Source: a virus
Length of the DNA: 38,018 bases
IMG/VR virus record: IMGVR_UViG_3300020020_000102
Location: 1 to 38,018 of that record
Direction: 5' to 3' (one strand)
Under the pieces are notes generated by a model that saw only the letters and a program-made list of their open reading frames with translations, was not told the origin of the DNA and made no database searches. Made by a program: the position numbers and the translations under genes. Positions within the stretch are counted from its first letter, which is position 1, and each line of letters starts with the position of its first letter. This document shows positions 12,799 to 16,217 of the stretch, in pieces.

Positions 12799-13095
12799 TT
12801 AAGTGAACTCGTAATAGTCATTGTCTCCTTTGATGGTGGTCACGAAAGGAAATTTATTTTCGGGTACGCGCTTGATTTGATCAATAAGGACGGTCGATCC
12901 GGTGAACACGACACGTTTCTCTCCTGACTTTTCAATCTGAAGCGTCAGTAATTCTGTACCTGGCTTTTGCTTGGATGGTTCTAATTTAAATTCAAGCACT
13001 GTGATCGGTACGTTGAACAGTTTCTTTACCGGTATCTTGTCACCGACAAAAGCGTTGATGTTGGGTTTGATGTCGAAGTCTTTAAAGCTATTCAT
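12799..13095 (-). CDS. Small beta-rich protein translationally coupled to the DGR reverse transcriptase
   Basis: A 98-residue protein whose start lies inside the end of the reverse transcriptase gene (8-base overlap), so it is co-translated. The pattern (VGDKIPVKKLFNVPITVLEF, SKQKPGTELLTLQI, KRVVFTGSTVLIDQI, FPFVTTIKGDNDYYEFT) suggests a small all-beta fold of OB type, as in single-strand nucleic-acid-binding proteins. That is a by-eye judgement. Its coupling makes it a candidate accessory factor for template RNA or cDNA handling, though a general phage ssDNA-binding role is also possible. Confidence 0.62.
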   Translation of the reverse strand: MNSFKDFDIKPNINAFVGDKIPVKKLFNVPITVLEFKLEPSKQKPGTELLTLQIEKSGEKRVVFTGSTVLIDQIKRVPENKFPFVTTIKGDNDYYEFT

Positions 13096-14041
13096 TGGCT
13101 AACAGTCTTTTGGTTAAGTGTTTTGCATTGCAGTGACTAAGCCACCCGAGATAGGAAGCCTTCGAAGGATGTCGCTGATTTTGGCTTAGCTTACGTGCGA
13201 AGTTCTTTTTGATCTGCTTCCGTATCCGGACATGCGTGTGATAGAACACGTACCCGATAAAGTCGATACCGCGAGAAGCAACGGGAAAGACTTGGTGGTT
13301 TTCTTTTACCTCTAGCTTTAGGTCGAGCAGATATTGCATGGCATCAACAAGCACCTGGTGCAAGGATATTTTGGATGCAGCGAGAATAACTATGTCGTCG
13401 GCATAACGATAGTAGTACTTTACCCGCTTCTGCTCCTTGATCCAATGATCAAAATACGATAGGTAGAAATTGGCCAGGTACTGACTGAGATAATTGCCGA
13501 TCGGCAGTCCTGGTGCGCTGTCGATGATCTCATCCAGGAGCCAAAGCAGATCCGGATCCTTAAATTTTTTCCGGATCAACTGTTTTAGCACATTGTGATC
13601 AATGCTCGGGTAGAATTTCTTTATATCAAACTTCAGGCAGTACGTCGTGCCTTCAGTGTCTTTAAGATCGTTTTTTAGTTTTCGCTGCAGGTGATGGATG
13701 CCGCGAGTTTTAATGCAGCTGTACGTGTCTGCTGTGAATGTGCTGACGAAGATGGGTGCAAGCACGTTCATGATCGCATGGTGTGTAATGCGATCGGGGA
13801 AATATGGTAGGCGATAGACGATCCTTTCCTTGCGTTCGCGTATCGTGAAGATGTCGTAGGTCGATGTCTTGTAGGTTTTGTTTATGAGCATATCTTGAAG
13901 GACAAGGAGATTGCCTTCTCTGTTTGCATTGTGAAGGATAACGCCGTGCGTGTTGGCCTTTCCTTTCTGCGCCTTGTGATCTGCTTCCTGCAGGTTCTTC
14001 AGGCTGGTGATCTGATTATAGATATTACCTATTCGTTTCAT
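13088..14041 (-). CDS. Reverse transcriptase of a diversity-generating retroelement
   Basis: A 317-residue reverse transcriptase. Visible motifs in order are FDIKKFYPSIDH (about 138-149, first catalytic Asp in FDI), LPIGNYLSQ (179-187), YRYADDIVIL (211-220, catalytic YADD) and a thumb region. The IGNxxSQ form in place of the usual QG motif marks the DGR class, whose enzymes copy a template repeat with errors opposite adenine and install the cDNA in a target gene. Size is normal for DGR enzymes. The gene lies downstream of the template repeat at 14154-14225 and two target genes, all on the same strand. The ATG at 14041 is preceded by an overlapping 11-codon leader ORF. Confidence 0.95.
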   Translation of the reverse strand: MKRIGNIYNQITSLKNLQEADHKAQKGKANTHGVILHNANREGNLLVLQDMLINKTYKTSTYDIFTIRERKERIVYRLPYFPDRITHHAIMNVLAPIFVSTFTADTYSCIKTRGIHHLQRKLKNDLKDTEGTTYCLKFDIKKFYPSIDHNVLKQLIRKKFKDPDLLWLLDEIIDSAPGLPIGNYLSQYLANFYLSYFDHWIKEQKRVKYYYRYADDIVILAASKISLHQVLVDAMQYLLDLKLEVKENHQVFPVASRGIDFIGYVFYHTHVRIRKQIKKNFARKLSQNQRHPSKASYLGWLSHCNAKHLTKRLLANE

Positions 14042-14060
14042 GCGTTCCTTTGCTTTTCAT
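14025..14060 (-). CDS. Possible 11-residue leader peptide overlapping the RT start
   Basis: An ATG at 14060 preceded six bases upstream by AGGAGAAGG opens an 11-codon frame, MKSKGTHETNR, that stops at 14025, inside the first codons of the reverse transcriptase but in another frame. Ribosomes ending here would be well placed to restart at the RT ATG (14041). It is too short to judge as a protein; the evidence is the strong SD and the overlap. Confidence 0.35.
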   Translation of the reverse strand: MKSKGTHETNR

Positions 14061-14113
14061 AAGTCGCCTTCTCCTGAGATACCAACGCCTTAGATTTTGA
14101 TGTCGTTATTTTT

Positions 14114-14130
14114 TGCCCGTTCGGCAGGGC
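14114..14130. other. Small GC-rich hairpin between template repeat and RT
   Basis: GCCC and GGGC flank TGCCGAAC (alternatively TGCC and GGCA flank GAACG), so a short GC-rich stem can form about 24 bases past the template repeat in the spacer leading to the RT gene. In characterised DGRs this spacer RNA is structured and needed for cDNA priming. There is no T tract in the minus-strand direction, so it is not a terminator. The remaining spacer (14061-14153) has no other clear feature. Confidence 0.4.
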
Positions 14131-14150
14131 CTGCGATAGTCTATTTTCAT

Positions 14151-14237
14151 TTAGCATAGGTGAGAGCTGACATTCGAATTCGAATTCCAATTATCGTTGT
14201 CGTTGAACTGAAAGCCGGACGAACCTCGCTCAACCAT
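14151..14237 (-). CDS. Mini-ORF spanning the DGR template repeat
   Basis: An ATG at 14237, with AAAAGG a few bases upstream, opens a 28-codon frame MVER-GSSGFQF... that runs through the entire template repeat in the same frame as the targets and stops (TAA) immediately after its last codon, TGC. The central residues read FQFNDNDNWNSNSNV. Whether it is translated is unknown. It may simply be a remnant of the target gene from which the template arose. Confidence 0.35.
   Translation of the reverse strand: MVERGSSGFQFNDNDNWNSNSNVSSHLC
14154..14225 (-). repeat. DGR template repeat (TR)
   Basis: This 72-base repeat aligns without gaps to 14332-14403 and 14737-14808. On the coding (minus) strand it has 18 adenines, concentrated in six Asn codons, spread over 12 codons. 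The two variable copies differ from it at 13 and 14 positions, every one an adenine in the template; the other 54 positions are identical in all three copies. This is the signature of adenine-directed mutagenic retrohoming. Homology ends sharply on the RT side after TATGC/TTTGC, and fades on the other side with a gapped ATGGTT-GAG match. Confidence 0.95.
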
Positions 14238-14256
14238 CACACAGCCTTTTAAAGTT

Positions 14257-14646
14257 TTATAATGTGAAATAGTCTTTGTACAAATCTTCGAATTGCTTGC
14301 CTATGTACACAGCCACCTCGCGTGAGATGACGCAAAGGCGAGAGCCGACATTCGAAGTCGAAGCCCAACCATCGCCGCCGCTGAACCGAAAGCCGGACGA
14401 ACCATTCATCTCGAACCATGGGTAATATTTCCATTGACTGGAGTTACCCCAATTCGGCTTCCACTCTTTTCCTTTGTTGGCTAGGCGATTTGCTGCACGA
14501 GCAATGATGACTAGTTTGGCGTGTGCTTGCATGGCAGCATGATCTTGTTTCGGATAGCATGAGAAGTCTGGCAATACTTTTTTCGCATTGAGTTTTAACA
14601 CCGTGCAGGCATCTTCGAACGTTTTTAGCTCTTCAATCTTTTTCAT
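14257..14646 (-). CDS. DGR target (variable) protein 1
   Basis: A 129-residue protein whose codons 82-105 are the variable repeat, in frame with the template. Conserved phrases are YYPWFEMNGSSGFRF and VGSRLC, with the variable residues SGGDGWAST between them, and a helical C-terminus (EVAVYIGKQFEDLYKDYF). It is paralogous to target protein 2 just upstream. The N-terminal 60 residues are helical and differ from those of the paralogue. No signal peptide is present. Small variable proteins with this WFxMxxSSGF...VGSRL core occur in Bacteroidota phages; their ligand is unknown. The diversified loop is expected to be a binding surface. Confidence 0.88.
   Translation of the reverse strand: MKKIEELKTFEDACTVLKLNAKKVLPDFSCYPKQDHAAMQAHAKLVIIARAANRLANKGKEWKPNWGNSSQWKYYPWFEMNGSSGFRFSGGDGWASTSNVGSRLCVISREVAVYIGKQFEDLYKDYFTL
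14332..14403 (-). repeat. DGR variable repeat 1 (VR1)
   Basis: Seventy-two bases aligned without gaps to the template at 14154-14225. Thirteen differences, all at template adenines (coding strand): one to C, one to T and eleven to G, read on the coding strand. It encodes residues 82-105 of target protein 1, changing the template FQFNDNDNWN to FRFSGGDGWA. Confidence 0.94.
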
Positions 14647-14658
14647 AAAGGTTTGGTT

Positions 14659-15114
14659 TTATTGGATGATCAAGAATCGGTTGTACAGGAAGGTGAATTG
14701 CCGGCCAGCATATTCTGCCAGTTCACTTGTCTTGAAGCAAAGGCGAGAGCCGACAGCCGAAGTCGAATACCAAAAACCGTCGTCGCAGAACCGAAAGCCG
14801 GACGAACCATTCATCTCGAACCATGGAAAGTATTTGTATTCCTTGGAGTTGCTCCAGTCTGGAACCCATCCTTCGTTGAGTGACTTGGTTAGTAGCTTCA
14901 ATGTTCTGTATGCTACTTCATCCTGCGATAGACCTTCACTCCAATCGTTGAAGGTTGATTGAGTGATTCCATTGTCAGCCAGTACATCATCAATTGTTTT
15001 GATTCTCTCCATCACGTTCTTTGGCTTTGCCGCCTTGAACTTGATTTCACCGGATAGCTTGTCGAAGCTATCGATCTCGTACCCTTTTGGGATTTCAATT
15101 TTTAGTGTTTGCAT
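14659..15114 (-). CDS. DGR target (variable) protein 2
   Basis: A 151-residue protein whose codons 103-126 are the second variable repeat, in frame. It shares with target 1 the block NEGWVPDWSN, YKYFPWFEMNGSSGFRF, VGSRLC and a C-terminal ELAEYAGRQFTFLYNRF, but has its own N-terminus (about residues 1-60; MQTLKIEIPKGYEIDSFDKL and a helical part). The variable residues read CDDGFWYSTSA. It lies 12 bases upstream of target 1, a tandem duplication served by one template. No signal peptide or fibre repeats are seen, so the display site is not obvious. Confidence 0.87.
   Translation of the reverse strand: MQTLKIEIPKGYEIDSFDKLSGEIKFKAAKPKNVMERIKTIDDVLADNGITQSTFNDWSEGLSQDEVAYRTLKLLTKSLNEGWVPDWSNSKEYKYFPWFEMNGSSGFRFCDDGFWYSTSAVGSRLCFKTSELAEYAGRQFTFLYNRFLIIQ
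14737..14808 (-). repeat. DGR variable repeat 2 (VR2)
   Basis: Seventy-two bases aligned without gaps to the template. Fourteen differences, all at adenines of the template coding strand, spread over G, C and T substitutions. Only four of the 18 template adenines are unchanged. The pattern differs from VR1 at ten of the adenine sites or so, showing independent rounds of mutagenesis. Confidence 0.93.
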
Positions 15115-15147: not shown

Positions 15148-15654
15148 TCAAGAGAGAATTTTTGAGTTGATAGCGATGTATGGTTGAAGGCTGCACTTTG
15201 ATTTCATCCATATCGTTGCGGCTAATGGGTGGATCGGGTTTCCCTTTGAATCTTTACCAAAGCATAGTGCCCCAGGAAACATTGGTGTTATCTTCTTTGC
15301 GCGGTAAACTGCTTGCTTGAATGCTCCCCAACAGAAAATAACATCTCGAACTTCAGTCCTTATGGCTTCGAGGTATTGATCATTGTCCTTAACTGGATCC
15401 GGACATTCTCTCAGCTTGTCTGGTTTTGAAGTAATCAATGCGAAGAGGTTCATCATATAGAATCCACCATAGCCAAGACTGCCCATCATTGTAATTAGAT
15501 TTCTTATAGTCGTATCGTTTGACTCTGCATCAGCAGTTGATGGATTAAGTCCGATACACATTGCTTGAGGACGATCATTGCGCCATGCCCTGCGTAGGTA
15601 ATACCGATACAGGCCATCATCTGAAAATTTCGCGGAGCTCTCGATACAATTCAT
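15148..15654 (-). CDS. DUF1643 family protein
   Basis: A 168-residue protein with the DUF1643 hallmarks: CIGLNPSTADAESNDTTIR (about residues 33-51), GYGGFYMMNLFALITSKPD (about 61-79), a DNDQYL stretch and VIFCWGAFK. The biochemical role of this family is unknown; it is common on bacterial mobile elements. Its ATG overlaps the stop of the gene upstream (ATGA), and it lies 33 bases before the DGR targets, so it is part of the same leftward transcript. No link to diversification is implied by sequence. Confidence 0.85.
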   Translation of the reverse strand: MNCIESSAKFSDDGLYRYYLRRAWRNDRPQAMCIGLNPSTADAESNDTTIRNLITMMGSLGYGGFYMMNLFALITSKPDKLRECPDPVKDNDQYLEAIRTEVRDVIFCWGAFKQAVYRAKKITPMFPGALCFGKDSKGNPIHPLAATIWMKSKCSLQPYIAINSKILS

Positions 15655-16028: not shown

Positions 16029-16217
16029 GTACCTTTTTCCCCTACTTCCCCACTCGTTGATTATCAATTAATTACCGTCACTTTTTGTCCGGGGAAGTTT
16101 TTTGTGTTTTCCCATCTTCCCCTTTTTCCCCGCCTTTTCCCCTCCCTTCCTTACTATGTATATGTTTGATTTTTAATTAGTTAGTAGTAGTAGGGGAAAG
16201 AGGGGAAAAAGGGGAAG
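16029..16217. repeat. Polypurine/polypyrimidine inverted repeat between replication gene and next operon
   Basis: The gap 15999-16229 has no gene. Its plus strand is a C/T tract with repeated TTCCCC units (from about 16029 to 16146) followed by a G/A tract (16192-16217). CTTCCCCTTTTTCCCC at 16116-16131 is the exact reverse complement of 16202-16217, and with one bulge the arms extend to 16143 and 16192, leaving a loop of about 48 bases. It lies just past the primase-helicase gene. A replication origin, a long transcript hairpin or triplex-forming DNA are all possible. Confidence 0.75.

Follow-up and report, generated by a model that had tools for sequence, protein, structure and literature searches.

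The window analyzed here is an entire IMG/VR virus record of 38,018 bases. It holds integrase, S24-type repressor, terminase-like, portal-like, tape-measure-like, and endolysin-like genes, a content that identifies it as a temperate tailed phage. On its minus strand, positions 13088 to 15114 form a genuine diversity-generating retroelement (DGR), in which a DGR-type reverse transcriptase (RT) is accompanied by one template repeat (TR) and by two variable repeats (VRs) lying in tandem target genes (Table 1). The initial annotation had called this a complete DGR with one template and two paralogous targets, and the RT, the TR, VR1, VR2, and both open reading frames are indeed present. Its distinguishing features are the paired small targets, the lack of Avd, a candidate accessory protein, and a spacer tail that matches the VRs. 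An RT search yielded 80 viral loci and a further 78 from bacterial genomes, almost entirely those of Bacteroidota, which are also the hosts of the related phages; related RT stretches in IMG/VR number 322, and more than 100 viral and bacterial sequences carry the same gene pair with the OB-like gene described below. The sequence anatomy of the cassette, its conservation, and its associations were observed directly in this set, whose loci are mutually related, so that the counts given here are of nonindependent events.

Table 1. Features of the DGR cassette, in window coordinates
Feature	Position	Strand	Remarks
OB-like protein, 98 aa, candidate DGR accessory factor	12799..13095	-	Start overlaps RT stop
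DGR-type RT, 317 aa	13088..14041	-	YADD and IGNYLSQ; Pfam RVT_1 E 3.9e-19; PHROG 1423 E 1.1e-117
TR-to-RT spacer, conserved structured RNA	14042..14149	-	Rfam RT-17-like over 14046-14131
Spacer tail AGCAAAGG, predicted priming segment	14047..14054	-	Complements VR IMH-like end (CCTTTGC, plus T in VR2); mismatched to TR (CCTATGC)
TR	14150..14226	-	Mutagenized core 14172-14207, 14 A's
TR 3' end, IMH*-like: GTCAGCTCTCACCTATGC	14154..14171	-	A's fixed at +3, +10, +14 relative to VR
Target 1, RT-proximal, 129 aa	14257..14646	-	Holds VR1; proximal paralogue lineage; PHROG 11581, unknown function
VR1	14332..14404	-	Mutagenized tract 14350-14385; IMH-like end 14332-14349
Target 2, distal, 151 aa	14659..15114	-	Holds VR2; distal paralogue lineage; PHROG 11581
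VR2	14733..14809	-	Mutagenized tract 14755-14790; IMH-like end 14737-14754

The identification of the RT as DGR-type is supported by the intact YADD and IGNYLSQ motifs and by its closest solved relative by sequence, 8ub7 ("Reverse transcriptase," E 3.5e-41), which is its best match in the PDB and is the Bordetella phage DGR RT. Loss of the catalytic residues, named in the initial annotation as grounds for rejecting the element, was looked for, and YADD is intact. Assignment to the antiphage defense RTs (DRT, retron) was rejected, with scores far under the NCBIfam cutoffs (78 versus 200 bits for Drt3a and 54 versus 390 for Drt2). No Avd-like open reading frame was found among the cassette neighbors scanned; a known accessory gene is absent from about a quarter of DGRs (PMC7290462).

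The TR aligns without gaps to VR1 over 73 nt, with mismatches at 14 of 19 adenines and nowhere else, and to VR2 over 77 nt, with mismatches at 17 of 22 adenines and nowhere else; the probabilities that all would fall at A by chance are 3e-11 and 5e-13, respectively. Gapless alignment with changes at A alone, as originally described, is thus borne out for both repeats, and their unlike patterns fit the separate rounds proposed for them. The earlier tallies of 13 and 14 changes among 18 adenines reflect a repeat delimited a little more narrowly, at 72 nt, but four of those changed adenines are fixed marks. The figure of 12 changed codons has to be revised, as the outer A differences are such marks and the mutagenized span is 8 codons. 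This tract holds 14 adenines, 9 of them changed in VR1 and 10 in VR2, and its ~8 codons make about 1.8e8 protein variants possible per target. Each VR ends 74 to 75 nt before the end of its gene and so lies near the 3' end of an open gene. No third VR was found in the whole window, and in shuffled control windows the best match still had 28 non-A mismatches of 55. Across 181 VRs of relatives, 1,658 of 2,648 internal adenines are changed (760 to G, 562 to T, and 336 to C) versus 50 of 3,868 non-A positions, in counts that leave out loci with identical VRs and in which some kinship remains.

The fixed marks were numbered on the sense strand from the conserved V codon of VGSRL. Adenines of the TR at -38, +3, +10, and +14 are changed identically in VR1 and VR2. 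Among VRs of relatives, +3 is G in 115 of 115, +10 is G in 108 of 108, and +14 is T in 96 of 98, whereas core adenines take all four bases. Fixation of this kind leads us to treat +3, +10, and +14 as marks that distinguish TR from VR and not as products of mutagenesis. Taken alone, the +3 and +10 marks could also have their source in selection for Gly and Arg. The change at +14 is synonymous, as is a TCA-to-TCG change at -52 (58 cases in relatives), and protein selection therefore cannot explain these two. The marks behave like the IMH/IMH* difference of Bordetella phage BPP-1. A hairpin or cruciform after the IMH is important in BPP-1 but is not known as a requirement of all DGRs; in 60 sequences, no hairpin signal was found downstream of the IMH (mean folding z, -0.05).

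The spacer that separates the TR from the RT is conserved and folds into a structure with 19 predicted pairs, 11 of which show compensatory changes among 46 sequences. In this clade the spacer is covered by the Rfam RNA RT-17 (RF03020), with matches above the cutoff in L024, L026, and L028; the window copy falls below it (E 0.12), and the RNA is placed here as the 3' part of the DGR template RNA. In reverse complement, the spacer tail, AGCAAAGG(C), reads as the VR end, GCCTTTGCT; against the TR end it is mismatched. This preference is widespread in the clade, the tail complementing the VR better than the TR in 170 of 191 VRs and worse in 4, with a mean longest match of 8.6 to the VR, 4.4 to the TR, and 4.9 to shuffled sequence. 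In divergent loci (L132, L119, L148, and L158), tail and VR change together. The rule is not universal, as the match is short in some loci, e.g., L111, L112, and L136.

A like arrangement exists in BPP-1 (L225), where positions 48 to 56 of the TR-brt spacer (AGGTGGTCA) are an exact 9-nt complement of the VR sequence TGACCACCT and not of the TR, and where this stretch ends at the priming adenine, A56. In IMH*, an internal spacer adenine has been found to prime cDNA synthesis (PMC12875486), and this, together with the likeness to BPP-1, is the basis on which we predict priming from the tail in the present clade. A VR-matching primer may be a general rule of DGRs. We also observed that in a distant DGR of Pumilibacter muris (L158), with 45% RT identity, the spacer complements its own, differing VR end over 10 nt.

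Two targets per template had been described as less common than one. That holds for DGRs overall, two targets being present in about 13% of them (cited in PMC10743442), but in this RT clade the arrangement is standard: among loci with a short TR (about 75 nt) and enough upstream DNA, 90 carry two VRs, 19 carry three, and 5 carry one, so that 109 of 114, near-duplicate loci included, have two or three targets. In relatives with a long TR (about 115 nt), a single VR is almost always the rule. Targets in relatives span 120 to 165 aa, the proximal ones mostly about 120 to 138 aa and the distal ones about 147 to 162 aa. In a tree of the part that precedes the VR, in which deep support is weak, the proximal targets group apart from the distal ones, in two clusters (11 label changes versus 49 in shuffles, with 0 of 200 shuffles as low). 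Such separation across loci points to a duplication that is old and that almost every locus has retained, not to a recent one. Additional target copies lie 4 to 5 kb upstream of the RT in L074, L126, and L136, and in L136 also 6.7 kb downstream, which suggests that targets can be dispersed.

The target family has no match in Pfam, NCBIfam, PADLOC, or the PDB, and a BFVD fold search with a target gave significant matches to uncharacterized phage proteins only. AlphaFold2 modeled target 2 with confidence in the part outside the VR, as a mostly helical protein that has no PDB match; neither profile nor fold comparison with the PDB found a C-type lectin, the VR region being poorly modeled (pLDDT 49 to 58). 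A scan of viral contigs with target protein patterns gave no matches, probably owing to the variable residues that those patterns contained. Of 149 targets, 148 are free of membrane or export segments; in the remaining one, a segment is strongly hydrophobic. The VGSRLCF end recurs in sister DGRs that have a single large target, in a likeness limited to the last 24 residues.

The 98-aa protein encoded next to the RT has a predicted OB-like fold and looks nucleic acid binding; neither its gene nor the structured spacer featured in the initial annotation. Its AlphaFold2 model (b-b-b-a-b-b, pLDDT 91) finds fold matches in the PDB that include OB domains of RPA, HIN, and RuvB-like proteins, although these matches are weak (E 0.013 or worse). 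The gene is present in 120 of 124 related short-TR loci, a count that again includes near-duplicates, while conservation of the other neighbors is limited to about 5 loci. An even sample of 395 genomes from across the phylum contained the protein five times, always adjacent to a DGR-type RT. Fusions of RT and OB-like domain exist in two lineages (L121 and two RTs of Parabacteroides massiliensis), and in the archaeal viruses ANMV-1 and vir525 a homologue of the gene follows the RT. The C-terminal extensions that crAss-like RTs carry were also searched for an OB domain, and none was supported. The DGR survey of Wu et al. 2018 reportedly lists "conserved hypothetical" accessory classes. The two P. 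massiliensis RTs (L182 and L183) combine a CDDG-type motif with the C-terminal OB-like domain; no TR or VR was found near L165, at the same place as L182, and this is perhaps an RT of other function that shares the OB-like partner.

Comparison with known systems places the cassette among several DGR types. The BPP-1 DGR (mtd-avd-TR-brt) is alike in its order of target, TR, and RT, its homologous RT, its A-only core changes between TR and VR, its IMH/IMH*-type end difference, and its spacer segment complementary to the VR end. It differs in having Avd and a single target, a large tail fiber protein with a C-type lectin fold, and in having no OB-like gene annotated beside brt. Avd-less lineage 3 DGRs, such as that of crAssphage LMMB (PMC7290462), share the target-TR-RT order, the absence of Avd, and an RT that is 48% identical, whereas the LMMB target is a single 486-aa tail-collar protein, its TR is about 104 nt compared to about 75 nt here, and no clear OB-like domain was detected in it. 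The archaeal virus ANMV-1 (PMC4372165) has the homologous 98-aa gene directly after the RT, with a single 446-aa target, AdtA, and a TR of about 113 nt; at least in part of its text, the ANMV-1 paper does not single out this gene. The gut phage DGRs nd4 and nd12, with tentaclins (PMC10743442), likewise diversify two targets from one TR, but those targets differ in topology and carry C-type lectin domains, unlike the small paralogues of one family found here.

The genomic context bears on where the targets act. At least 51 of the related loci contain Mu-type genes. MuA (29 of 29) and MuB (33 of 33) share the strand of the cassette and lie upstream of it. Head genes (38 of 38 and 41 of 41) are found downstream and on the opposite strand, as is terminase in 33 of 36. 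The window phage is of the integrase type, with a primase-like gene upstream of the cassette. Early operons of differing phage backbones, Mu-like and integrase-type, thus harbor the cassette. The MuA/MuB context and the opposite-strand head genes of relatives support the initial view that the targets belong to the early or middle region and are not tail fibers. Such an early-operon context makes a virion role less likely. Other features of these loci are a DUF1643 gene directly upstream of the targets (window 15148-15654; Pfam E 5e-34), clustered C-rich repeats, both direct and inverted, in the interval from the primase-like gene to a small open reading frame (window 16032-16217), and, in L089 (14958-15851), a Mu F-like head protein whose C terminus carries a CdiA_C toxin-like domain (Pfam E 1.2e-9).

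Most probably, the targets are a pair of variable binders at work within the infected or lysogenic cell; a role as small virion components is less likely, and one as large tail fibers is disfavored. A broader and more tentative proposal, which we regard as possible but short of probable, joins two claims: that the OB-like protein is an unrecognized accessory factor replacing Avd across bacterial and archaeal viruses and that the targets form a paired, early-expressed, hypervariable intracellular binding system. The targets might instead be ordinary receptor-binding or virion surface proteins, two copies of which simply widen host range. Viral DGR targets are mostly tail proteins (PMC8144416), the VGSRLCF end recurs in the large single targets of sister DGRs, and uncharacterized genes of 250 to 711 aa, possibly for tail proteins, follow the cassette on the same strand in the window, all of which keeps this a serious contender, if one that stays below an even chance. 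It has to contend with the small size of the targets and their lack of recognized fiber domains, with their placement beside MuA/MuB and opposite to head genes, with the narrow extent of the likeness to sister targets, and with the occurrence of one cassette in both Mu-like and integrase-type phages. As for the 98-aa protein, OB-like proteins are common in phage replication regions and the cassette lies near replication or transposition genes, so that a replication protein might adjoin the RT by chance. This is unlikely when set against the poor conservation of other neighbors, the adjacency of all five matches in 395 genomes to a DGR-type RT, the fusions in two lineages, and the position after the RT in archaeal viruses.

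The tail AGCAAAGG could likewise serve the RT gene as a leader or ribosome-binding element, with an incidental VR match, as in most loci it stands just before the RT start codon. In L003, L011, and L015, however, with 400 to 500 nt between TR and RT, the tail keeps its place close to the TR and not by the RT; no shared gene was seen between TR and RT in the long-gap loci (L003, L010, L011, L015, and L025). Covariation of tail and VR in divergent loci and the like match in BPP-1, away from its RT start, also speak against a leader element, which we consider improbable. Still less credible is a decayed or dormant DGR with old VR differences. The VR1 and VR2 patterns are known from one assembled genome, which leaves room for that reading, but the cassette retains an intact and conserved RT, TR, pair of open reading frames, spacer RNA, and OB-like gene, and the VR patterns of close relatives are unlike those of the window.

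Taken as a whole, the data are very probably best explained by a functional-looking, Avd-less DGR of target-TR-RT order in a temperate phage, with two independently diversified targets; activity in this phage is suggested by its one genome and by its relatives. What we infer about priming, the OB-like protein, and the targets can be arranged as a working mechanism. The TR and the structured spacer would be transcribed as one RNA, and the spacer tail would fold back onto the TR end and, by analogy with BPP-1, prime the RT. The RT would then copy the TR with errors opposite A, and the cDNA would replace the homologous core of VR1 or VR2. The fixed end marks, evident as a pattern in the repeats, would be kept in this step and continue to distinguish VR from TR. 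The OB-like protein, whose association with the RT is observed, may work with it and handle RNA or single-stranded cDNA in place of Avd. About 8 codons would thereby be diversified independently in each of two old paralogous proteins, which would be made in the early operon and which lack export signals.

In culturable environmental Bacteroidota, the clade to which this cassette belongs provides a DGR that is compact and free of Avd, together with a candidate new accessory gene that can be tested and a predicted priming helix common to the clade and BPP-1. Its targets may widen the use of DGRs beyond tail fibers, and the system makes phage diversification of intracellular proteins directly testable.
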